From a virus: a stretch of 51,086 bases of DNA. Shown here one piece after another: positions 5,866-21,914 of the stretch; the first letter of the stretch is position 1; the number at the start of each line of letters is the position of its first letter. Where the stretch lies: positions 1 through 51,086 of IMG/VR virus record IMGVR_UViG_3300042486_000026; one strand, given 5' to 3'. The position numbers were made by a program, and so were the translations under genes. Under the pieces are notes generated by a model. That model saw only the letters and a list, made by a program, of their open reading frames with translations, was not told the DNA's origin and made no database searches.

Positions 5866-8364
5866 ATGATTGTACAAATAATACTAACGACAGCTGGTGC
5901 CAATACTGGACCTAACTTTGATCTATATTCAGATGTAGACAGTTATGAAATTCCATTTGAAACAAGTGTACCTAAAGCAGCTCTTGTTGCAGGGTATATA
6001 AGCAATGTTGTCCCAAATGGTACTACTGTCGTTCGTGTTGTTTCTTTTGGTACATGTAATACAGCAGTTGATATTAATATATTATTATTACCTGTAACTA
6101 CTACTACTACTACAACTTGGCCTGTACCTATTCCAACTAGTACTACTACTACTACAACTAGTACAAGTACAACCACTACTACAACAACTAGTACATCTAC
6201 TAGCACTACAACCACAACTAGCACAACTAGTACATCAACTAGTACAACCACAACAACAACTACTGCTGCACCAACCACTACAACAACAACTACTACATCA
6301 AATCTTCTTAACTTTACTGTAGTACAAGGCTGTGCTGGTAATAATCAGGCTTATGCTCTTATGAGTCAGTTCTCAGGAGGCAGTGGTCAGTATTATCCAT
6401 CTGTTTATGCATATTACACAGAGGCAGAGGCACTTAATGAACCTTTTGATACTGCAGTTACATTAACTCCTAGTAGTGTTAGTTGGGGGTTACCAGCTGG
6501 TTTACCAAATGGTATTTTTTGGGTAGCTATACAAGATAAAAATAACCTAACAGACAAAAGAGCTAAATCATTTGAAGTTACAGGATGTGGTATTTCAACA
6601 ACTACCACCACAACAACTACTACACAAGATCCTGGTGCTTATTGGAATGCTCAATTTTGTACATCACTATTTAATGCTCCTATACTAAGAGTCCCTTCTT
6701 CTGCTGTTTCTGGACAAGTTATTTATGGTGGTGATACATTAGACAGTTGTGCTACATTAACTACTCCTTATGTAGGTACTCCTCCATCTTATGTTGATAG
6801 AAGAACATATCCATTATATGCTAATTGTATTGCTTGTAATGAGTTAGTAAACTCACGTTGGGCTACGATGGTTAGATGTGATAATCCAGCAATAACAGCT
6901 TATAGTAAACGTTTTAATGTTGTAGACTTCAATGTTAATGATATTGTAGCAGATGATACGGTTTATAATCAACCTCCATTCTATACTTATCGTATTACTA
7001 GTATTTCTACCGATAGTGCGAATTTCCCTCAACGTTTTATTAATCCTACTGGTTTAAGCACTTGTCCTTCTGAATCTACAACAACAACTACCACAACTAC
7101 AGTATCACCTTATCCGTGTACATTCTGGACACTTACTAATTACTCACCTGATTTCTCAAACTATGTTGATTATACAGATTGTGATAATAATGTTACAACT
7201 ATAAATGTACAACCATTAACATCTCCTCAGATTTGTGTTAAAACTGGTACTACACCAACTACAAACGCGGAGTATATTAGTTTAGTTAATACAAACGAGA
7301 GTTGCGTATATTGTCTTGATTGTTATGTATATGAGTATATAAACACTAGTGGTAATACAGTTGCATTAAGTGGTACTTTGTGTAATGGTGGAAGTTATTC
7401 TACAAATGTAGGTCCATCAGGTGAAGGTACTACATTCTGTTTACAACAATATTCACAAAGTCAAATAAATGCATATGCAGCTAATGGCTTAACTCTTACA
7501 CGAGCTATTACACCTTGTGGAAATAGCTGTGTTACAACAACAACTACCACTACCACTATAAGAGAGTGGTATAATATAATTAATTGTAATGGTGGTGGAA
7601 CTGATACTTCTACATCGTATCCTGTAGATACTTATAATGTTAATGATAGAGTTGGGGCTGATGGAGGTATTTGGCGAGTTACAAGTATTACAAACTCTAA
7701 TCCAGGTGGATCTAATTTTGAACTTTCGCCTACAGGTTTAACTGGTTGTCCTACAACTACCACTACTACAACTACAGCTGCTCCTACATTAGAGTGGTAT
7801 ACCATAAGTAGTTGTGTTGCAGATGCAACTGATACTTCTACGTCATATCCTATAAATACATACGAGATTAATGATAGAGTTGGAGCTAATGGATTCCCTT
7901 GGCGAGTTATTGGAATTTCAAACACTAACCCAGGTGGATCTAATTTTGTGCTTTCAAATATTGGAGGAACTGGTTGTCCTTTTGTAGGATGTATTAAGTG
8001 GACTAATGAGTTTGATTACAGTCAAGAAGTTACATGTACTGATCCTTTTACTTCAGTAACTTCTTCAGGAACTGATGTTTATTATAGATTAACTGCTTCC
8101 TTATTTGAACTAGATGGTGTAACTCCTAAGAATGCTCCTCTTGGTGGTGTAATAATAACATTTGGTGTATCAACATCTGGTTCTTGTTCAACTGGTTCTG
8201 GAGGAACGTATGTAGTAACAATACCTGAATTTACTAATAGTGTAGTAGCTCCGTATCAGCAAACTAACTATAGTGAGTGTGGATATGGTTGTGGTTATAA
8301 TACTTTCACTCCGTTCCAACTTGAGTATACTAATTATCAATATGTAAATGAATGTCCAGCATAG
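5866..8364 (+). CDS. Multidomain adhesin-like protein with poly-threonine linkers
   Basis: An 832-residue protein. Residues 1-75 form a beta domain shared with the protein at 21048. They are followed by a poly-Thr/Ser linker (residues ~78-145). After that come cysteine-containing beta modules separated by runs of 7-9 threonines near residues 244, 405, 556 and 630. A ~64-residue module (starting EWY, ending GTGCP or GLTGCP) occurs as a tandem pair at 7561-7752 and 7789-7980, and a diverged third copy lies near 6890-7070. The C-terminus is another Cys/Tyr-rich domain. It uses the stop TAG. There is no enzyme motif. Likely a surface-exposed, flexible, glycosylation-prone tail or head appendage that contacts host or mucus glycans. 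Confidence 0.6.
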   Translation: MIVQIILTTAGANTGPNFDLYSDVDSYEIPFETSVPKAALVAGYISNVVPNGTTVVRVVSFGTCNTAVDINILLLPVTTTTTTTWPVPIPTSTTTTTTSTSTTTTTTTSTSTSTTTTTSTTSTSTSTTTTTTTAAPTTTTTTTTSNLLNFTVVQGCAGNNQAYALMSQFSGGSGQYYPSVYAYYTEAEALNEPFDTAVTLTPSSVSWGLPAGLPNGIFWVAIQDKNNLTDKRAKSFEVTGCGISTTTTTTTTTQDPGAYWNAQFCTSLFNAPILRVPSSAVSGQVIYGGDTLDSCATLTTPYVGTPPSYVDRRTYPLYANCIACNELVNSRWATMVRCDNPAITAYSKRFNVVDFNVNDIVADDTVYNQPPFYTYRITSISTDSANFPQRFINPTGLSTCPSESTTTTTTTTVSPYPCTFWTLTNYSPDFSNYVDYTDCDNNVTTINVQPLTSPQICVKTGTTPTTNAEYISLVNTNESCVYCLDCYVYEYINTSGNTVALSGTLCNGGSYSTNVGPSGEGTTFCLQQYSQSQINAYAANGLTLTRAITPCGNSCVTTTTTTTTIREWYNIINCNGGGTDTSTSYPVDTYNVNDRVGADGGIWRVTSITNSNPGGSNFELSPTGLTGCPTTTTTTTTAAPTLEWYTISSCVADATDTSTSYPINTYEINDRVGANGFPWRVIGISNTNPGGSNFVLSNIGGTGCPFVGCIKWTNEFDYSQEVTCTDPFTSVTSSGTDVYYRLTASLFELDGVTPKNAPLGGVIITFGVSTSGSCSTGSGGTYVVTIPEFTNSVVAPYQQTNYSECGYGCGYNTFTPFQLEYTNYQYVNECPA
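6142..6297 (+). repeat. ACN-trinucleotide tract encoding Thr/Ser linker
   Basis: About 50 consecutive codons are nearly all ACT/ACA/ACC with AGT/TCA/TCT serines and one Ala-Ala-Pro interruption. The synonymous codons are shuffled rather than a pure DNA repeat. Shorter tracts of the same type are at about 6092-6117, 6595-6627, 7077-7104, 7531-7560, 7753-7779, 15264-15290, 16465-16490, 16534-16616 and 21018-21042. Confidence 0.85.
7561..7980 (+). repeat. Tandem duplication of a ~192-nt protein module
   Basis: Segments 7561-7752 and 7789-7980 encode the same ~64-residue Cys-containing domain (shared elements TDTSTSYP, NDRVGA, WRV, NPGGSNF, TGCP). Similarity is still clear at DNA level (for example CCAGGTGGATCTAATTTTG in both). 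They are separated by a short poly-Thr linker. Confidence 0.8.
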
Positions 8365-10976: not shown

Positions 10977-11966
10977 ATGTCGTACTACTATAAATATAAC
11001 TTTGTCTCTCCTGAGCCTGTTTACTCTACAGTTAAAGAGGAATTAAAGAGCTACTTTGATACAGGAGCTGTAGATGACTTATTGTTCCCTACTTATTTAG
11101 ATAAGTGTCTTCGTAAGCTAGGTAGAGCTACTTATGTTATTCGTGAAGCTATTCTTCACATTGAAGACTTTCAAGCTAGACTTCCAGATAATTTTATTGC
11201 TGTGAGAGAAGCATGGATGGCTACAGAGATTCCTCAGTATCCATACCAAACAGCCAACTCATTATATACACAAGCTGCTTCTTCTACAACTATTCAGATT
11301 GCTCCTATTACAAGTGGAACAACACCTTGTACTAATCCTTTATGTACAACAGGCTGTCCTGCATGTTCAACAGATTGTGTTGACTGTATGCCTGAGATAA
11401 TTCAAGCTGTATACAAGACTAATCACCAAACTACTAGATCATATAAGAAAGAGTATTTACTTAAGCCAGGTAATATCTCAGCACAAGGTAACTGTGATGT
11501 TAATTATACTGAAGCTTGGAACTTTGCTCCTACAGTACCTCCTATTCATGAGTTTACTCCAGGTTCTGCAAGTTATGATTCATTTGATATTAGAGACAAC
11601 AAGTTTGTAACTAACTTCAGAAATGGTATAGTGCATTTAATATTCTACGTTACTGAGTATGATGGCATTGGTAATCAAATGATTCCTGATAACTATCGTA
11701 TTCGTGAGTATGTAGAAGCATTCATTAAGTATAAGATATTTGAAACCCTATCTAATCAATTAACAGATGAGACGTTCGAACAGCTACAGAAGAAACTTGG
11801 CTATTATAAGCAACTTTCTGAGGAAGCATTCATTATGGCAGACATTGAAATAAAGAAGCAAACTCCTTGGGAAAAGCAACGCAGAATTAAGAATGACCTA
11901 AACAGGTTCAACATGTACGAATTGCCAAACAGAACAAATAGATATGGCTGGAGAAGAAACAACTAA
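10977..11966 (+). CDS. Putative tail-tube/ring protein with inserted Cys cluster
   Basis: A 329-residue protein with an adaptor-like helical N-terminus (residues ~35-80, LDKCLRKLGRATYVIREAIL then ARLPDNFIAVREAW), a beta-rich middle, and a C-terminal helical region (~240-300) ending in a basic tail. The 'LPDNF' turn following helices recalls tail tubular protein A/P22 gp4 adaptors. Unusually, residues 118-137 hold six cysteines spaced C-x4-C-x3-C-x2-C-x3-C-x2-C, likely a metal-binding or disulphide loop inserted in the fold. The 3' end overlaps the muzzle gene by 23 nt. The function as neck/tail ring is inferred from pattern and context. Confidence 0.55.
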   Translation: MSYYYKYNFVSPEPVYSTVKEELKSYFDTGAVDDLLFPTYLDKCLRKLGRATYVIREAILHIEDFQARLPDNFIAVREAWMATEIPQYPYQTANSLYTQAASSTTIQIAPITSGTTPCTNPLCTTGCPACSTDCVDCMPEIIQAVYKTNHQTTRSYKKEYLLKPGNISAQGNCDVNYTEAWNFAPTVPPIHEFTPGSASYDSFDIRDNKFVTNFRNGIVHLIFYVTEYDGIGNQMIPDNYRIREYVEAFIKYKIFETLSNQLTDETFEQLQKKLGYYKQLSEEAFIMADIEIKKQTPWEKQRRIKNDLNRFNMYELPNRTNRYGWRRNN

Positions 11967-14900
11967 TCAAGGGAACGTAAGGCAAAACTTTAATGCTGCA
12001 CAAACTGGTCTTAATATGGACCAGACTTTAGCTCAGGTTCCTAAAGGTAAGCTGACCTATGCATTAAATGCTTCTGTTGAGAACTTTGACTCAGACTCTG
12101 TAAACTATCAGAATGAGCCAGGTAATGAACTATGCCTTAGCTTTCCTGAAGATTATGTTTTAATTGGAGAACATTTTATTCAAGAGAAGAGTAAACATAT
12201 ATTCTTTCTAACTAATCCTCTTGGAGGTGAAAGTGAGATTGGATACATGGATAATAATGACTGTGTATATCGTACATTAGTTAATGCTGCTTGTTTAAAC
12301 TTTAATGATAAGTATCCTATACACAAGGTAGTACATAAGATTACAAACTGTACTACTGAGATTTATTGGACTGATGGTTACAATCCTCGTAGATATTTAG
12401 ATATTGATAATATTCCTTACACAGTTGCCGTAGGAAATAGTGTTTGTGATACTGTTACATCAGATCAATTAGATTGTAATCAGTTAAAGATTCAACCTAA
12501 TTTCTCTATTCCTTCATTAGAAGTTACTGATGTTATTACAGGAGGTAATCTTACTGCTGGTACATATCAGTTTGCTATTCAGTACGCTAATGCTACTGGT
12601 GTACCTTATTCTTCGTACTACTCAGTTACTAATCCTACACCTATTGCAAATGTTAATAATACAACGCTAGATTTCAACTATCCTGTTGGAAGATCTATTG
12701 TTGTAAATATTAATGATATAGATACTACAGGATACTTTGAATATTTCAATTTAGCTGTAATCAAAACAGTTAATAACATTACATCTGTTGAGTTAATTGG
12801 TACATACTTTATTGGTAATACAAGTGATCAAATTACTTATACAGGACAGAATTCTGAAGCTATCAAGTTAACTATTGCTGATATCTTTGAGAAGTTTCCT
12901 TATTACGATATTGCTGATGATTTAACTACTGTGCAAGACATTCTTGTATGGGATGGATTAACATCTATTGATCGAGTAAACTATCAGAAAATTGCTAATC
13001 AGATTCAGTTACAATGGCAGACATATAGAATTCCTGCTACAGAAAACTATGCTGATGAGTTGAATGCTACTAACTTAAGAGGATACCTTCGTGATGAAGT
13101 GTATGCTTTTGAGATTGTATTCTTATTAAAGAATGGTAAGCAGACAGATGGTTTCCATATTCCTGGTAGAAAACTAACGTATGCTGAGTCTGTTCAGCCT
13201 CCTATTCCTAATACTAATCCTGACTTTATTGGTGATGGTGCATCTGCTCCATATTGGAAGATATACAACACTGGATCAGTTAGTGGTACATCTCCAGAAT
13301 ACACAGCTGCTACAGATAAGGTTGGCTACAAAGGTCCTTATCAATATGGACAGTTTGCTTATTGGGAATCAGCTGATAAGTATCCTTGCAATCCTGAAGT
13401 GTGGGGAGATTTAGCTGATCAATACATCAGACACCATAAGTTTCCAGATATTCTTGTAAGCCCTATCTTTGAGAGTGGTATACCTACTATTGTAGCTAAT
13501 AAGTATGAAGTGACTATGCGGTCAGGTGATGCTGTATTTCCTATTGGTGTAAATATTAACTCAGATGAAGTATATCGTTTAATTGAACTATCTGATTTAA
13601 CAGCAGAGCAAAAAGATGATATTGTTGCATACAAGATTGTTCGTGGTAATAGATCTACAAATAAGTCTATTGTAGCTAAAGGTATTCTACGTAACGTAGG
13701 TAAGTATAAGCGTGAGGGTACAGAGTATTACTATCCTAACTACCCTTACAATGATCTTAATAAAGATCCATTTCTTCTTGAAGAAAATAATGCTTATAAT
13801 GCTACTTCTGTATTATATAAATTAATTGTAACAGTTGCAGGATTTGTAACAATTACAGATGTTAATACAGGAGAGATAACAACTGTTCCAGTATCTGTAG
13901 GACAGAATAACATTTGTTCCTTGACAAGACCTGTTCCTAATGGTGATACAGCAATTACTTGGAATTTACCAGATGGTACATCAGCAGTACCTTCTGCAAG
14001 TGACACAATATTATTTACATCTGCATCTAGCACTACATTTATTTATCAAGATCCTTATAATTTTCTTAATCAATTAAGAATAACTGTTACAAATGGTAAT
14101 CCTCAATATGTATTAGCTTTTGCAGGTTATACTCCTCAATATGAAAGTGGTGATGAAGACTACAGTATAACAATAGTTCCAGGAAGAAATCCTTTATGTT
14201 ATCCAGATGAGTTAAATGGTTTTGGTACAGATGATTCTAAATATAGATATGTATTTAACTCTCCTGAAACATCTTTTGGACAACCTTATTTAGGTGATGT
14301 TCTTAAAGTTGAGAATGCTATTTATGGGGCTGGTAAAGCTCATTTTGTGAAGGTTAAAAATAATGCTCAGTATAAATTCCTTACAGGAGACATTCAGTAC
14401 ACTGCGTTGCAGTCTAGTTTTAATATTTCTAACATTGCAGGATTATTTAATGCTGCTGCAATGTTTACTGCCTATCAAGCATATCTAACAATATTCTTAA
14501 ACTCAATTAGTAGAAAGAATCTTTCTTACTCGTTTAATTCTATTGCTAGTTATGACTATTCTGCTCCTGTAGGAAATAATTTAGGTATTAAACAAAGACA
14601 GCTTCACTTAGCTCAATATCTTGTTCCTGGTGTACAATCTGTAGGTGATAGTTTTAATGTTAATAACTTTCAAAGAGAGTCTTCTGTATACTTAAAGACA
14701 ATAAGCACAAGAGATAATGTATCTGTAACTCCGTTACCATTTGTAAAAGATACTCCTTCATTACAATCACCAGTAACAGCACAACCTTTTATTACAGACA
14801 TTACAAGGTTTACTGCCTCTCAAAAGACAAATGGTTGTGGTAATCCTGAGAATCAAGAATCTACTACAGTAGTTTCTTACTATGCATCTATTAAGAATAG

Positions 14901-16752
14901 TTTCATCAATCAGTGGGGACAAATATATTCTTATCAAACTATTGATACAGGATTCCAAAAGAATATTCTTGGAGGAAATGCATTAGGTATAGATACGTTC
15001 TTCGGTGGTGATACATTCATTTGTAAGTTTGCATTTAAGACTAAGCTTCCATTCTTTATTGACAATAGAGTGGATGCTCCAGATGATTCAGATATATTCT
15101 ATGATGAGATTGGTAATATTGCTTATCCTCAATACTGGCATTCATCTAGATCTATTCAAAGTAATTATACTACACCAAACGGTGTAACCTTGCAGAATAT
15201 TATATCTGTTAAAGCAACAAATCTAGATTGTAGTAATACTAATATTGATTTTACTAACGGACCTACTACAACAAGCACTACCACATTGCGTCCAGGTTCT
15301 GTAGTTACTAGTTCTAGTAATGCTGTATACACTGGTAAGATGTACCAGTTTGCATATGGTATTCCATCGTTCTATTGTGAGAGTTCTATCAATGTAGACT
15401 TACGTCAAGCATTTAATAATAGAGAAGGAGACTTCTATCCGCACGTAAGTTCTGGTATTCCTGATGCATGGTTACAACAAACGTTTGTACCTATTGCTCA
15501 AGATAATACGTACTACTATAACGTGTCTTACTCTAAACAGAATACAGAGAACTTCTTCTCTCACTTGCCTGTAGATTGGACACCAGAGATATGTAATACA
15601 TATTATCCATTCAGAGCTATCTATTCAGATCAGCAAGATCCACAAGCAAACAGTAGAGTTAATAGCTGGTTAAGTTATTCTGCTACATCGTTCTTTGATT
15701 TTCCTCAGAACTATGGTGGTTTAACAGCACTAGATGGTATTCAGAACAAAGCTGTACTTGCTCGTTTTGAGAATAAGTCATTGTTATATAACACAATGCT
15801 TACAATCAATACAAGCAATCCTCAAGCTGCGTATTTGGGTAATAGTACATTATTTAAGTCTGCTCCTCCAATTGACTTTGCTGAGACAGATCTTGGCTAT
15901 GTAGGATCTCAAAACAAGATGTTGTTAAAGATTCCTCAAGGACAGATAACTATTGATGCTAAGCGTGGGCAAGTATTCTTAATTGCTGGCAATCAAGCTG
16001 CAGACTTATCTGCATTTGGTTCAGGACTTAATAAGTTCTTTACAGACCACTTAGCATTTGAGATATTACGTTACTTCCCTAAAGCTGATACAGATAACCA
16101 CTTTACTGGTTGTGGACTACATGGTGTATTTGATAGTAAGTATGATCGTGTGATTATATCTAAACTTGATTATATCCCTCAGAAAGATCAAATAGGTAAG
16201 ATATTCTATGATGAGGTTGCACGTGAGTACTATGTAAATAATACCTATGGATCTACTGTTCTTAAAGAGATTGTTCAGTTAACTGATATTAGATACTTCT
16301 GCAATAAGTCTTGGACTTTGTCATTCAGTATGAATACAAAGAGCTGGATTTCATTCCATAGCTACATTCCTAACTTCTACATAGCAGAGAATAACTTCTT
16401 CTATTCAGGACTTAACGAAGGTTGTGATTTACTTGCTGTGGCTATTTCGGAGATTCCAACTCCTTCTACTACAACAACTACTACCACTGGAATAAATTGT
16501 TCATTAGCTGGAGAGGCTGTTGAACTTTATCCTATAACTACTACAACAACTACATCTTCATCAACTACTACCACCACAACTACAGGTTTTCCTACAACTA
16601 CTACAACGACTACACCTGGTCCAGGATCATTTAATATTGTTGGATTCCAAAACTTTAACACGAATCTTAATACAATATATACGTCAGCTCATTATGATCA
16701 AGACACGCTATATGTTAACTTTAATGTAATTCCTGGAAGTTTAAGTACATAA
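11944..16752 (+). CDS. Tail muzzle/stabilisation-type protein of crAss-like phages
   Basis: A 1602-residue, beta-rich protein, the expected size and place for the Crassvirales muzzle protein, which forms the long nozzle below the ring stack and through which cargo leaves. The N-terminus (GNVRQNFNAAQTGLNMDQTL at ~11-30; then LTYALNASVEN and EPGNELC) is recognisable as the conserved start of this family, followed by ~1400 residues of alternating strands. Poly-Thr tracts occur near residue 1110 and, three times, between ~1507 and 1560, before a ~40-residue C-terminal beta segment; these are unlike the core and match the linkers of the 5866 protein. The start lies inside the upstream gene. No enzyme motif is visible. 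Confidence 0.72.
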   Translation: MAGEETTNQGNVRQNFNAAQTGLNMDQTLAQVPKGKLTYALNASVENFDSDSVNYQNEPGNELCLSFPEDYVLIGEHFIQEKSKHIFFLTNPLGGESEIGYMDNNDCVYRTLVNAACLNFNDKYPIHKVVHKITNCTTEIYWTDGYNPRRYLDIDNIPYTVAVGNSVCDTVTSDQLDCNQLKIQPNFSIPSLEVTDVITGGNLTAGTYQFAIQYANATGVPYSSYYSVTNPTPIANVNNTTLDFNYPVGRSIVVNINDIDTTGYFEYFNLAVIKTVNNITSVELIGTYFIGNTSDQITYTGQNSEAIKLTIADIFEKFPYYDIADDLTTVQDILVWDGLTSIDRVNYQKIANQIQLQWQTYRIPATENYADELNATNLRGYLRDEVYAFEIVFLLKNGKQTDGFHIPGRKLTYAESVQPPIPNTNPDFIGDGASAPYWKIYNTGSVSGTSPEYTAATDKVGYKGPYQYGQFAYWESADKYPCNPEVWGDLADQYIRHHKFPDILVSPIFESGIPTIVANKYEVTMRSGDAVFPIGVNINSDEVYRLIELSDLTAEQKDDIVAYKIVRGNRSTNKSIVAKGILRNVGKYKREGTEYYYPNYPYNDLNKDPFLLEENNAYNATSVLYKLIVTVAGFVTITDVNTGEITTVPVSVGQNNICSLTRPVPNGDTAITWNLPDGTSAVPSASDTILFTSASSTTFIYQDPYNFLNQLRITVTNGNPQYVLAFAGYTPQYESGDEDYSITIVPGRNPLCYPDELNGFGTDDSKYRYVFNSPETSFGQPYLGDVLKVENAIYGAGKAHFVKVKNNAQYKFLTGDIQYTALQSSFNISNIAGLFNAAAMFTAYQAYLTIFLNSISRKNLSYSFNSIASYDYSAPVGNNLGIKQRQLHLAQYLVPGVQSVGDSFNVNNFQRESSVYLKTISTRDNVSVTPLPFVKDTPSLQSPVTAQPFITDITRFTASQKTNGCGNPENQESTTVVSYYASIKNSFINQWGQIYSYQTIDTGFQKNILGGNALGIDTFFGGDTFICKFAFKTKLPFFIDNRVDAPDDSDIFYDEIGNIAYPQYWHSSRSIQSNYTTPNGVTLQNIISVKATNLDCSNTNIDFTNGPTTTSTTTLRPGSVVTSSSNAVYTGKMYQFAYGIPSFYCESSINVDLRQAFNNREGDFYPHVSSGIPDAWLQQTFVPIAQDNTYYYNVSYSKQNTENFFSHLPVDWTPEICNTYYPFRAIYSDQQDPQANSRVNSWLSYSATSFFDFPQNYGGLTALDGIQNKAVLARFENKSLLYNTMLTINTSNPQAAYLGNSTLFKSAPPIDFAETDLGYVGSQNKMLLKIPQGQITIDAKRGQVFLIAGNQAADLSAFGSGLNKFFTDHLAFEILRYFPKADTDNHFTGCGLHGVFDSKYDRVIISKLDYIPQKDQIGKIFYDEVAREYYVNNTYGSTVLKEIVQLTDIRYFCNKSWTLSFSMNTKSWISFHSYIPNFYIAENNFFYSGLNEGCDLLAVAISEIPTPSTTTTTTTGINCSLAGEAVELYPITTTTTTSSSTTTTTTTGFPTTTTTTTPGPGSFNIVGFQNFNTNLNTIYTSAHYDQDTLYVNFNVIPGSLST

Positions 16753-16762
16753 TAACTAAGAT

Positions 16763-18115
16763 ATGCTAACAGATAGAATACAAGAAAAGCTTAGAGAATT
16801 ATCAACCTTGCCAGGAGTTAAATCAATTGGTTTAGGTAAAAAGATTATTGGAGGAACTCAAACTGATACTGTAGGAATTACATTTGGTGTAACAATCAAA
16901 GAAGCTAATCCTGAGAACATGTTACCTACATCTGTAGATATAGATGGTGTAACGTATGTTACTGATGTTGTAGAGATTGGAGAAGTTTCATTTGCAGCTT
17001 GTCCAGCTACTCCTACAGGTACTACTCAAGAAAAATATGTAGTATCAGGAATGTCTTACATTAACAGATTTTTTTATAATTCATCAAGTTTTGATTCGGG
17101 AGAGCAAGGAATATATATTGGAACATTTGGATTTGTTGCTTATCATCCAGATAAAAATATATTGGTAGGTGTAACAGCAGCTCATTTACTTTATGATCCA
17201 TCAGAACCTTCTACTGTTAATAAACAGGCAGTAGGTAATAAATTTTATGTAGATATATCTGCTAATGGATATATTAATTTTAACTATCCTGTTGTTGCAG
17301 AGTCTTATTTTATTAATGGTCAAATTACTTCAATTAATATACAAGGTAGTTATATAGGAGCAGTATTATCTTATGTACCATTAAAAGTTAAACCTGAAAA
17401 TGATCCTAATAGATTCAATCAGGTAGATGCTTGTTTATCATATTTTGTAACATCTCAAACTTATACATGTGTTATTCCAGATTTTGTTGGAAGTGCACCT
17501 GCTCTTGAACTTGATCCATTTTATGATCCCTCTTGGAGATCTTATCAAGTAAAAGGGATTCCTGAAATAACCAGTCCTATGCCTTTTGCTACAACAGCAG
17601 AACTTAATGCATTAGTATCAAGTCCTCCTTCGCAGGTATCTAGTACTGGTGTAGGCACTGGAACAAAACATGGTTTTGAGTGTGGATTAAAAATAGATGC
17701 TGTGGGGGTAACTACTAGTTTGACATCTGATACAATACCAGGCGAAGTTTATTTTGATAACTTAATATCATTTTCAAGAATAACACCAGGATTACCTACT
17801 GTTCTTGCTGGAGATTCTGGAGCTGCATTAATTGCAAAAATAGGAGGAATTTGGAAAATTATTGGTTTAGTTATTGGAGGAAATGAAACAGTTGGATATG
17901 CTTCTAGAATTGATAAACTTGCAGAACAATTAGGAATTGAAGCTTGGGATGGAAGTGTTAAACCTTTAGGATCTATTGTTACTAGTTATTTTGGATATAC
18001 TGTTCCTAGTATTGTAACTCCAGGAATAAATGATGCTCAGCAAATAGTTATAGATGGTAGAATATATTATCAAGCAGGAGTCACTACACTTTCAGCAATT
18101 GGATATTATGAATAA
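16763..18115 (+). CDS. Trypsin-like serine protease, paralogue 1 of 3
   Basis: A 450-residue protein with a chymotrypsin-fold triad: His141 in TAAHLL, Asp222 in QVDACL, and Ser352 in AGDSGAAL. The N-terminal ~75 residues are a domain (GVKSIGLGKK, then IDGVTYVTDVVEIG) that I recall at the front of bacterial S1-like proteases of unknown function. After the protease, residues ~390-450 contain the shared element EAWDGS and a beta C-terminus with YYQAG. There is no signal peptide, so external action would need attachment to the virion. All eight arginines are AGA, unlike the capsid genes. It starts 11 nt after the muzzle stop. Substrate unknown. Confidence 0.82.
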   Translation: MLTDRIQEKLRELSTLPGVKSIGLGKKIIGGTQTDTVGITFGVTIKEANPENMLPTSVDIDGVTYVTDVVEIGEVSFAACPATPTGTTQEKYVVSGMSYINRFFYNSSSFDSGEQGIYIGTFGFVAYHPDKNILVGVTAAHLLYDPSEPSTVNKQAVGNKFYVDISANGYINFNYPVVAESYFINGQITSINIQGSYIGAVLSYVPLKVKPENDPNRFNQVDACLSYFVTSQTYTCVIPDFVGSAPALELDPFYDPSWRSYQVKGIPEITSPMPFATTAELNALVSSPPSQVSSTGVGTGTKHGFECGLKIDAVGVTTSLTSDTIPGEVYFDNLISFSRITPGLPTVLAGDSGAALIAKIGGIWKIIGLVIGGNETVGYASRIDKLAEQLGIEAWDGSVKPLGSIVTSYFGYTVPSIVTPGINDAQQIVIDGRIYYQAGVTTLSAIGYYE

Positions 18116-19421
18116 TATAAAAAAAGAATTACGACAAATACTTATGATTAATCCTGACGTTGTTGGCGCAGGATATAGTAAGAAAATTACAAATAATATT
18201 GTAACAGAGGAAAAATGCTTAAGCTTTGGTGTAAAGAAGAAACTTCCATTATCTGAGATTTCTCCTGAGAATCTAATTCCTTCAGAGATTGAGATAGATG
18301 GGGTGATATATAAAACAGATGTAACTGAGTTAAGTGATATCAGACGTATGACTTGCTCTCTACCTCCTAGTTGTTATAGTTGTTATGATGCTACTAATGG
18401 AGTACCTTGTGCAACAAATCGTACTGCTAATAGACCTATTAAAGGTGGTACTGTATTTCAGATGTCTGGAAGCTACGGTACATTAGGTTTTTTTGCCGTA
18501 CATACACCAACGCAAGCTATTGTTGCTATTACAAATGCTCACGTTGCAGATATAGCACCATACTTTAATCCTGTTACAGGAGGTGTATATAATGGAGGTT
18601 TACCTTTTTTATCTAGGTATACAAAAAGACCTCCTTTAGGAGTACCTAAAACAGACGCTTGGAGTTGGTATACATATACTCCATTTGGTATGCCTGCTCA
18701 TATAGATAAAGAATCTGCACTTCCTTTTGTGAATAAAATTGATGCAGCAATGGTTGCAATATATCAAAATGATACACAACAAGGAGTACCTTTTATAACA
18801 AATGCTGAATCATGGAAACAAATTGGGTTAAGTGATATTCCTGGCGGAATAAATACCCCTCCTACATTTGCATCTACACAAGAGTTAGATGCATTGATGG
18901 ATTTTACAGATTTACAATTGTGGAGTTCAGGTGCTAGAACTGGTGTTAAGAAAGATGAGTGCGGACTTAAAGTGTTCTCTGATGATTATGGCTTTTTAAT
19001 GCTTGTTGGAAATTATCCTTTTATTAGTTCCTATGACAATACTATTGTAGTAACTCGATCAGATGTAACTTGTGTAGCAATTAATGGTGGGGACTCAGGA
19101 TCTGCTTTAATGGGTAAAGTTCCTACATATAATCCATCTGATCCTAACTGGAAGGATGGTCCACGTACATGGAAGATACTTGGTCTATTATATGCAGGAA
19201 GTACTAGTGATACAGGAAATTATGGTATTGCTTGTAGAATAGACCACATTGCTGCAAAACTACAAATACAAGCTTGGGATGGTTCACCTAAAGCTTTTTT
19301 AGATATACCTAACATGGATTACGAAGTTCTTGAGGGTCCAATTTTTGATAATCCTAAAACTATTGATAATAAAGAATACTGGCAATTGGGAATGATAAGC
19401 AAACAGCCAACGATTTGGTAA
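18108..19421 (+). CDS. Trypsin-like serine protease, paralogue 2 of 3
   Basis: A 437-residue paralogue of the preceding gene. The triad is His145 (TNAHVAD), Asp212 (KIDAAM) and Ser330 (GGDSGSAL). The N-terminal domain is conserved (GAGYSKK, then IDGVIYKTDVTEL), and so is the C-terminal QAWDGSPKAF followed by YWQLG. A longer frame opens at 18054, but MNNIKKELRQ at 18108 aligns with the starts of the two paralogues, so this start is preferred; it overlaps the upstream stop by 8 nt. Relative to paralogue 1, an extra Cys-containing segment (PPSCYSCYDATNGVPC) precedes the protease domain. Confidence 0.82.
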   Translation: MNNIKKELRQILMINPDVVGAGYSKKITNNIVTEEKCLSFGVKKKLPLSEISPENLIPSEIEIDGVIYKTDVTELSDIRRMTCSLPPSCYSCYDATNGVPCATNRTANRPIKGGTVFQMSGSYGTLGFFAVHTPTQAIVAITNAHVADIAPYFNPVTGGVYNGGLPFLSRYTKRPPLGVPKTDAWSWYTYTPFGMPAHIDKESALPFVNKIDAAMVAIYQNDTQQGVPFITNAESWKQIGLSDIPGGINTPPTFASTQELDALMDFTDLQLWSSGARTGVKKDECGLKVFSDDYGFLMLVGNYPFISSYDNTIVVTRSDVTCVAINGGDSGSALMGKVPTYNPSDPNWKDGPRTWKILGLLYAGSTSDTGNYGIACRIDHIAAKLQIQAWDGSPKAFLDIPNMDYEVLEGPIFDNPKTIDNKEYWQLGMISKQPTIW

Positions 19422-19450
19422 ATAATCAATAGTGTTTTAATAAATGATAT

Positions 19451-19753
19451 ATGGCAAAGTATTTCAGCTTTTATGTAACTAGTGGAGTTAAGAATAATTT
19501 TAATCCGTATAGTGTATACTATGATCAGGTTAATGAAAATAATTATGCAACACGAGCATATACTGATCATTTAATGAAAAATTATGTGTTATCTCTTCCA
19601 GGAGAACTTCCTTATTTTGTAATGAATGTAGAAGTCCCTGATTCTGCCACATCAGTTATTGTGAAATCATTATATGAAACACAAACTTTTCCATTAGTTT
19701 CTACTCCTCCTACAATAGGTACACTGTTTTTAACATTTGATATTATAGACTAG
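19451..19753 (+). CDS. Unknown 100-residue protein between two protease genes
   Basis: A small, Tyr/Asn-rich protein with no cysteine. Its second half looks like a beta-sandwich fragment (LPYFVMNVEVPDSATSVIVK...GTLFLTFDI). It ends in TAG three bases before the next protease gene. No homologue is recognised. Its placement inside the protease cassette suggests a linked role, for example an inhibitor, chaperone or small appendage, but nothing in its sequence proves this. Confidence 0.5.
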   Translation: MAKYFSFYVTSGVKNNFNPYSVYYDQVNENNYATRAYTDHLMKNYVLSLPGELPYFVMNVEVPDSATSVIVKSLYETQTFPLVSTPPTIGTLFLTFDIID

Positions 19754-19755
19754 TT

Positions 19756-21048
19756 ATGACACATTCAAACAATATTAATCCAGCTTTAAAAGAGTTATCT
19801 GCTCAATATTATAAAAGAGACATCGGTGTGATGTTTGCAAATAGAATAAAAGATGGACAATTAACTGATGAAGAGTGTGTAACATTTGCAGTTAAAGAGA
19901 AGTTACCATTAGATCAAATAAGCTCTGAAGATGTATTACCTTCTTTTGTAATAGTTGATAATAAATATTATCCAACAGATGTTATAGTACTAAGTAATGC
20001 TAGTACGCTAAATTGTCCAACACAGTGTATTGCTTGGCAAACTACTCCTCCTGGTAATAGAAACACAGTAAGACCTTTGAAAGGTGGGGTATCTATTGGT
20101 GCTAAAAACAATATTGTTTCTCCGACAGAATGTAAGAAAGGTACGTTAGGATTTATTGCTGTAGATAGAGCATCTCAAGCTTTAGTTGGTGTTACTGCTG
20201 GGCACGTAGTTGTTAAAAATCAGTTCATGACAATGAATCAAGATTTAACTAAGATTGCTCAAAATGAAAAAGATAACTATGTATATCAGAATGGAGAAAC
20301 TTGTACAGCAAATCCAGCATTACAAATAGGTCAGGTAATTAGATATGTTCCATTGTATGTACCTGCTGTACCCACTGTTAATCCCAATTATTTTAATTTT
20401 TCAATATTTAACAGGGTAGATGGTGCTTTAATATCTTTAAAAGAATCAGATGTTTCTAATACAGAATCATTTAAACAGTATGGAGTAGATTATAACTTAC
20501 CATTACCATTTGCTACATCACCTGAAATATATTCCTTGAATCAGTCAATTCCATTATATATGTCTGGAAGAACTACTGGAGCTGCAGAGGGTGATTGTAA
20601 TTTATATTATTATACTCTATATAATGATCAGATACTTGTAAATGGGTATGATTTACAAGGAGCAGATAGTGGTAGTCTATTTAGTAGTGTGATAATTTTT
20701 CTTGGTAAGTATGTAGGTTGTTCTGCTGCTGAACCAGGAGATTCTGGAGCGGCTTTAGTTGCTGATTTTAATGGTGTTAGAAAAATTGTAGGATTAGTAT
20801 TTGGTCAAGCTGTAATAAATAATGGGACACCTGTAGGGCTTGCTTGTAGAATAGATTGGGTTGCTGAACAGTTAGGTATTCAGGCATGGGATGGGACACC
20901 TAAAAACTTTATTAACGAACTTACTATTAAATACACAACTGTTCCTGGAAAGAGTTATGATTCTGTTATTAAGAAAAATAACAAGATATATTGGCAAGTA
21001 GGATTAAGTTCTCTTTCTACCACCACCACCACAACCACTATAATATAA
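19756..21048 (+). CDS. Trypsin-like serine protease, paralogue 3 of 3, with poly-Thr C-terminus
   Basis: A 430-residue paralogue with the triad His150 (TAGHVV), Asp222 (RVDGAL) and Ser330 (PGDSGAAL). The N-terminal domain is kept but more diverged (FAVKEKLPLDQ, then TDVIVLSN), as is the C-terminal QAWDGTPKNF and YWQVG. Just before the stop is a run of seven threonines (STTTTTTTII) of the same type that links domains elsewhere in this genome; here nothing follows, so a further domain may have been lost, or the tail itself may be functional. The stop TAA shares a base with the next ATG (TAATG). Confidence 0.8.
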   Translation: MTHSNNINPALKELSAQYYKRDIGVMFANRIKDGQLTDEECVTFAVKEKLPLDQISSEDVLPSFVIVDNKYYPTDVIVLSNASTLNCPTQCIAWQTTPPGNRNTVRPLKGGVSIGAKNNIVSPTECKKGTLGFIAVDRASQALVGVTAGHVVVKNQFMTMNQDLTKIAQNEKDNYVYQNGETCTANPALQIGQVIRYVPLYVPAVPTVNPNYFNFSIFNRVDGALISLKESDVSNTESFKQYGVDYNLPLPFATSPEIYSLNQSIPLYMSGRTTGAAEGDCNLYYYTLYNDQILVNGYDLQGADSGSLFSSVIIFLGKYVGCSAAEPGDSGAALVADFNGVRKIVGLVFGQAVINNGTPVGLACRIDWVAEQLGIQAWDGTPKNFINELTIKYTTVPGKSYDSVIKKNNKIYWQVGLSSLSTTTTTTTII

Positions 21049-21914
21049 TGTCTAAAACAGTAATCATAAAGTTAGAGAAGGCTGGTAATAGAACAGGCCC
21101 ATTCACCATATCAGATAACTATGGTAATGTGCTTGGTACTAATATCACTAAACAAGACCTGATCGATGGTGTATCATACACTGTTGCTGATGAGGTTAGT
21201 GTTATTATATTGCAGTCTACTGGCAAATGTAAGACAGTAAAGAACTTGCCTCTTACGCAACTTGATATCGAGGAGATAGCTGCTATTCAGTTCACTCCTC
21301 AGAACACTGCTACAATGTGGAAGCACTTAGCTAACACAACAATCTACAATACCTACTATGGAAACATAGAACCATATATCATCGAGTATCCATTTGCATA
21401 TAAGTATCATGATGAGATATTACAGAATGTAAAAGACTTTAGTACAGTGTACAAATACTTACCTATCCCTGATGGTGTATTTAATGACAATGCTAAGATT
21501 CAAACAGATGATCAGTATTTCAATAAGGCTATCATTTACAATGGTCAGCAATGTTCTGGCATGTTAGAATTGGTTCCTAAGCCAATGAATAACATGAAAG
21601 CGTACATGCAATATCCAATGTACAATGAATACTCTAAGACGATTACTTATACTAAATCAGATAATTTTTATCAATATAATAATTTCTGGTCTGTAGTTAA
21701 AAATAAATCATTACCTTTGTTTGTAACTGGCTGTGAGTCTTTATCAATCGATAAGGTTCTCAACCAAGCGAACATGGATTATTCTACACGTTCGTTCAAG
21801 AAAGATACAATCAGAGCTAAAGGTTTATTAATTAGACACATTCTAGACAACAAGTCTGATGCTCATATTATTTCTCAATTCATTATAGCTCCTGCTCAAA
21901 TCTCTTACAAGTAA
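21048..21914 (+). CDS. Conserved crAss-like tail protein
   Basis: A 288-residue protein. A longer frame runs upstream to 20991 but would encode a His-rich artefact of the poly-Thr codons in another frame; the ATG at 21048, coupled to the upstream TAA, gives MSKTVIIKL, which aligns with the N-terminus of the 5866 protein (both have a 'TGP' turn near residue 16 and V-x-V-x-x-x-S-x-G-x-C-x-T near residue 55). The rest is mixed alpha/beta, with a basic C-terminal region (RSFKKDTIRAKGLLIRHIL) typical of conserved crAss virion proteins encoded before the ejection proteins. Exact function unknown; probably tail. Confidence 0.55.
   Translation: MSKTVIIKLEKAGNRTGPFTISDNYGNVLGTNITKQDLIDGVSYTVADEVSVIILQSTGKCKTVKNLPLTQLDIEEIAAIQFTPQNTATMWKHLANTTIYNTYYGNIEPYIIEYPFAYKYHDEILQNVKDFSTVYKYLPIPDGVFNDNAKIQTDDQYFNKAIIYNGQQCSGMLELVPKPMNNMKAYMQYPMYNEYSKTITYTKSDNFYQYNNFWSVVKNKSLPLFVTGCESLSIDKVLNQANMDYSTRSFKKDTIRAKGLLIRHILDNKSDAHIISQFIIAPAQISYK

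Follow-up and report, generated by a model that had tools for sequence, protein, structure and literature searches.

The window, a 51,086-nt stretch of viral DNA (IMG/VR record IMGVR_UViG_3300042486_000026), carries three paralogous protease genes, designated here PR1, PR2 and PR3, which lie between the gene of a large muzzle protein and that of a 288-aa protein (Table 1). The assignment of this region to a crAss-like virion operon, made in an earlier note on the sequence, was supported by the match of the muzzle to PF25731 and by PHROG matches to virion structural proteins.

Table 1. Features of the protease locus, with positions counted along the window
Feature	Position	Strand	Evidence and remarks
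Muzzle, 1602 aa (hexameric tail-tip protein in crAss001)	11944..16752	+	PF25731 crAss_MUZ 8.7e-40; PHROG virion structural 8.5e-98
Poly-Thr/Pro low-complexity linker and following stretch, near muzzle C-terminus	16525..16665	+	sequence
Motif-like peptide LNTIYTSAH, near muzzle C-terminus	16666..16692	+	score 7.5
Second, weaker motif-like peptide QDTLYVNFN, muzzle	16699..16725	+	score 4.8
PR1 protease	16763..18115	+	450 aa; triad H141/D222/S352; PHROG 20754 protease 1.5e-5
PR2 protease	18108..19421	+	437 aa; triad H145/D212/S330; PHROG 20754 8.7e-11
100-aa protein between PR2 and PR3	19451..19753	+	ORF; C-terminal motif; proposed PR3 carrier
C-terminal motif IGTLFLTFD of the 100-aa protein	19715..19741	+	score 9.7
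PR3 protease	19756..21048	+	430 aa; triad H150/D222/S330; AlphaFold pLDDT 83.9, pTM 0.87
288-aa split-off C-terminal muzzle part, closes insertion slot	21048..21914	+	conserved in relatives; fused in Lbo-JY46

The insertion slot in the muzzle

The proteases had been described as lying between the muzzle and a conserved tail gene. The upstream neighbour is indeed the muzzle, and the downstream gene turned out to be part of the muzzle as well. In Leptolyngbya phage Lbo-JY46 (L303, 8932-13896) one ORF matches both the muzzle profile and that of the 288-aa protein, and the slot therefore sits inside a split muzzle. The three paralogues are not strictly consecutive, as the note had them, because the 100-aa ORF separates copies 2 and 3. 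Relatives of the 100-aa protein were looked for outside the window virus and none was found. Its origin as a copy of an N-terminal domain common to tail genes was rejected (hhalign E 0.015, probability 3%). That domain, of about 70 aa (LTTAGxDTGPFxLYSD), opens several tail genes that have poly-Thr linkers and differ at their ends; it was seen in the window at 5866-6108 and from 21048 onward, in L029 at 14643 and in L077 at 14921.

Among the 80 nearest muzzle loci, most of them 57-66% identical and a few on contigs that end before or within the slot, proteases occupied the slot only in the window virus's own record, and the cassette was absent from the slot of the 79 nearest relatives. No protease was matched anywhere in the full records of 45 muzzle relatives; in a separate run, with alignment A1, the same search tool recovered all three copies in the window's record. 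The slot of protease-free relatives was either empty or held one gene of roughly 75-355 aa. Many of these slot genes share the N-terminal domain of the protein encoded at 5866-8364 in the window, followed by poly-Thr linkers.

The cultured muzzle relatives nearest to the window are phages of Leptolyngbya, Cellulophaga and Flavobacterium, and two distant human-gut records also match its muzzle. The closest cultured relative (33.5% identity) has a cyanobacterial host, which is unusual for crAss-like phages, described as infecting Bacteroidetes (PMC10136315).

Three diverged proteases of the NAL1 type

The start of PR2 at 18108 (437 aa) is more likely than that at 18054 (455 aa), and its triad is numbered from 18108. 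PR1, PR2 and PR3 are 26-30% identical in pairs over their full length, with BLASTP E values of 4e-31, 4e-49 and 9e-32, far beyond chance. When duplication in place was tested, grouping of the three as a single clade was neither demonstrated nor rejected (p-AU 0.17, with long branches). The TDV and AWDG elements reported earlier were found in all three, and the triad positions agreed exactly with the ORF translations. The triad columns were invariant in alignments of 3, 10 and 34 rows, and H, D and S were retained in 101 of 103 distinct viral homologues, in agreement with the view that the triads stayed intact despite strong divergence. One of the five copies in L276 has a damaged triad. In the profile alignment, a relative in L201 (5001-6224) has Glu where the catalytic Asp is expected. 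Because H, D and S are conserved in 101 of the 103 homologues, we infer that PR1, PR2 and PR3 are probably active serine proteases.

The term trypsin-like, used in the earlier note, held for the fold and failed for the family. Structures were predicted for PR3 and for one relative, and both models gave a chymotrypsin-type fold with the NAL1 (NARROW LEAF 1) domain layout. The first 34 PDB matches of the PR3 AlphaFold model in Foldseek were all NAL1, with E values down to 1e-13, and the list continued with bacterial chymotrypsin-fold proteases; the top 34 PDB matches of the second model were likewise all NAL1 (E 5e-16). When the 34-row family profile was compared with PDB sequences, rice NAL1 was the best match (1.9e-6), in an alignment that passes through the catalytic His and has a second stretch spanning GDSG. 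All three proteins matched phrog_20754 "protease" among the PHROGs profiles (1.5e-5 to 3e-13). Pfam NAL1_N gave weak to moderate matches below the cut-off in relatives and no reported match for PR1, PR2 or PR3, and no Pfam family was assigned to PR1 or PR2. The classical trypsin family (Pfam PF00089) was matched by PR3 alone, at 18.1 bits against a cut-off of 20.6. Profile and model comparisons thus point to NAL1-type serine proteases and not generic trypsins, with a predicted layout of a NAL1_N-like domain, a chymotrypsin-fold domain and a C-terminal YWQxG element.

A C-terminal motif on the upstream gene products

The protein encoded directly upstream of a protease of this family usually ends in a Pro/Thr linker followed by N-T-[IVL]-[YFW]-x-x-[FIWYL]-[DEP]. 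The motif mostly ends 0-5 residues from the C-terminus of its carrier, and the T/P/S fraction before it had a median of 0.64, compared with a background of 0.20. A strict regular expression was written from the first loci and tested on loci fetched afterwards. Matches were found in 28 of 60 distinct held-out upstream genes, compared with 6 of the 766 remaining genes in these loci (Fisher p 1e-29). Such p-values overstate independence because the held-out loci, being of the same family and not fully independent, share ancestry with the training loci. Several genes missed by the expression carried visible variants, as judged by eye (e.g. NTIWMWFE and NTIYVHTP). With a position score for which the first loci served as training set, 46 of 61 held-out upstream genes were recovered, as against 17 of the 766 others.

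The information in the motif is concentrated in codon positions 1 and 2, and its distance and frame relative to the protease start vary; the motif is therefore a protein-level signal. The same analysis of codon positions and frame ruled out a promoter or ribosome-site DNA element. Motif similarity followed protease identity (Mantel r 0.26, p 0.0005, 0 of 2000 shuffles as high) over 2639 pairs in which BLAST showed no relation between the upstream bodies. When 75 muzzle C-termini were scored, the only passes came from the window virus itself and from one internal match of marginal score (L086). The muzzle of L106, which has a protease neighbour, scored 20.8.

The window motifs, scored with their own instances excluded from training, are weaker than those in the rest of the family. 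The C-terminus of the muzzle is proposed as a candidate carrier of protease tags, and by the trained score PR1, which directly precedes PR2, has no motif. Tentatively, PR1 and PR2 may be assigned to the muzzle, which has two motif-like copies, and PR3 to the 100-aa protein. In the arrays of L104 and L276 a motif-like peptide closes the upstream protease, with another protease behind it, as if the proteases were chained, the end of one tagging the next. A one-to-one rule of motif to protease does not hold, because L101 and L162 each carry two motifs ahead of one protease. Protease-free muzzles (L019-L097) often end in poly-Thr-linked DCxLxGTAVxxC repeats, which may be another type of C-terminal tag.

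The upstream C-terminal peptide may specifically engage the protease, and its most likely role would be that of a tether on a flexible leash, displaying the protease at the tail tip. Docking in cis was modelled with AlphaFold on a fusion of the L114 upstream tail and its protease, in which the stop codon was read as Ser purely as a short modelling linker and not as biology. The motif was disordered in this model (pLDDT about 33-44) and formed no strand, which could be explained by the short linker, by an interaction that requires separate chains or an oligomer, or by the hypothesis being wrong.

The main rival to tethering is peptide cleavage, with the motif as a cleavage or recognition site. 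On this reading the protease would cleave the upstream tail protein at its end, or in an array the protease before it, in the course of assembly or infection, and so mature or release a tail part. In favour of it, the motif lies at the exposed end of the neighbouring gene product, after a flexible linker, and tracks the protease type, and the lack of stable docking in the AlphaFold model is what a transient substrate should give. However, a cut this close to the C-terminus would free few residues, and a simple cleavage site would not be expected to be hydrophobic and strand-like, as the motif is. We consider this reading unlikely.

The motif might also serve another role, such as folding or trimerisation of the carrier tip, while the proteases are virion or late proteins and the gene pair travels as a recombination cassette via the Pro/Thr linkers. 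Low-complexity linkers lend themselves to recombination, the muzzles without a protease carry different linker-joined short repeats (DCxLxGTAV) at their ends, and motif and protease could just be inherited together. Against this, few of the other genes at these loci have the motif (17/766) and it is essentially missing from muzzles without a protease neighbour, and we hold this explanation, too, to be improbable.

Relatives, proposed role and comparison with known systems

A search of crAss-like genomes, as proposed in the earlier note, found the family elsewhere, usually in one copy, and the triplet in none of the 79 close muzzle relatives. Family members were present in the tail regions of other crAss-like phages and of myoviruses. 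L106, a crAss-like phage, has one copy in the same muzzle slot as the window, while in the crAss-like L099, L121, L123, L128 and L134 the protease occupies a different tail-gene slot; in L009 it lies near a tail-sheath gene. Tandem arrays comprise two copies in L104 and L185 and five in L276. In some relatives the protease is joined to cohesin-like, PKD, DUF285 or PEBP-like domains. Fusions of a phosphatidylethanolamine-binding-protein domain to proteases were seen in L142 (9995-11908) and L104 (10924-12870). A 484-kb phage and Aeropyrum coil-shaped virus have relatives of the proteases without tail context. For a bacterial source, no relative was found with the patterns used in two GTDB genome scans, which cover close relatives only.

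With the muzzle upstream, a muzzle part downstream and relatives in the tail regions of unrelated phages, the virion association suggested earlier is likely, at the tail. An alternative is that the proteases are made late and remain intracellular, acting on host regulators and outside the virion. Plant NAL1 works inside the cell, on a TOPLESS-type corepressor (PMC12915138), and such a role would suit the two relatives without tail context. It would also suit the absence of signal peptides, a point of the earlier note with which a crude hydropathy check agreed, no strongly hydrophobic N-terminus being seen in PR1, PR2 or PR3. Nevertheless, the consistent location of the proteases in tail regions of unrelated phages, the fusions to adhesion-type domains and the presence of the motif on tail carriers make an intracellular role quite improbable.

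Maturation of capsid proteins or of the giant cargo proteins, the latter a role raised in the note, is hardly credible. Although cargo genes lie in the same operon, close muzzle relatives keep the downstream genes without a protease, and in other phages, which bear sheaths, the proteases occur near tail-sheath genes. Degradation of mucin or immunoglobulin in the gut, another suggested role, finds no support in the hosts of the nearest cultured muzzle relatives, the human-gut records being only distant.

Taken as a whole, the reading we prefer, with a probability of roughly 45%, is that PR1, PR2 and PR3 are active NAL1-type virion proteases, that they form an accessory module for host contact at the tail tip, and that the C-terminal peptide of the upstream protein tethers them there. 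The displayed proteases would trim host-surface proteins during adsorption or penetration, a target suggested by the tail position and the adhesion-type fusions. The occurrence of the same tag before proteases in many unrelated phages suggests a shared, undescribed scheme of tail carriage. A general version for tailed phages, in which a leash with a C-terminal address peptide recruits the NAL1-type protease of the next gene, can be chained and is swapped between unrelated tails as a module, is possible and is put forward with reserve.

Phage-tail enzymes are known mostly as sugar- and peptidoglycan-degrading. If the proposal is true, a widespread tail-region protease family with a readable partner tag would offer a handle on virion-borne proteolysis, the tag-protease pairs would bear on how tails swap enzymes, and there would be a route to further tag-enzyme pairs in unannotated phage genomes.

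The muzzle gp44 of crAss001 (PMC10172136) belongs to the same family as the product of the gene upstream of PR1, and the main text of that account of the tail machinery contains no word beginning with protease, proteolytic or cleav. In a limited search of the open-access literature, no description of NAL1-type proteases in phage tail regions or of the motif was found. The putative serine protease of Aeropyrum coil-shaped virus (Alphaspiravirus) and PHROG 20754 belong by profile to the same family as PR1, PR2 and PR3. The Aeropyrum virus protein matches NAL1_N at 2.6e-5. Unlike PR1, PR2 and PR3, it has 326 aa and lies outside any tailed-phage tail region, and the upstream motif of the tailed-phage family was not seen with it. 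An uncharacterised protein of Virus NIOZ-UU157 (BFVD A0A7S9XDX3) matched the protease over the whole chain, with a TM of 0.84 and 31% identity.

Plant NAL1 (PF25608 NAL1_N; PDB 7y77, 8pmm and 8hau), of which the solved structures matched are rice proteins, shares with the phage proteases an N-terminal domain with a DV-type signature and a chymotrypsin-fold domain in which the catalytic His and GDSG are aligned, and the structural match is almost full-length. In contrast, identity is about 16% with a TM of 0.5-0.68, the setting differs, and the C-terminal YWQxG stands on the phage side, exclusive to the phage family within the fetched loci. NAL1-type proteases were already known, and what appears new here is the tail-region family with the C-terminal motif on its upstream neighbours.
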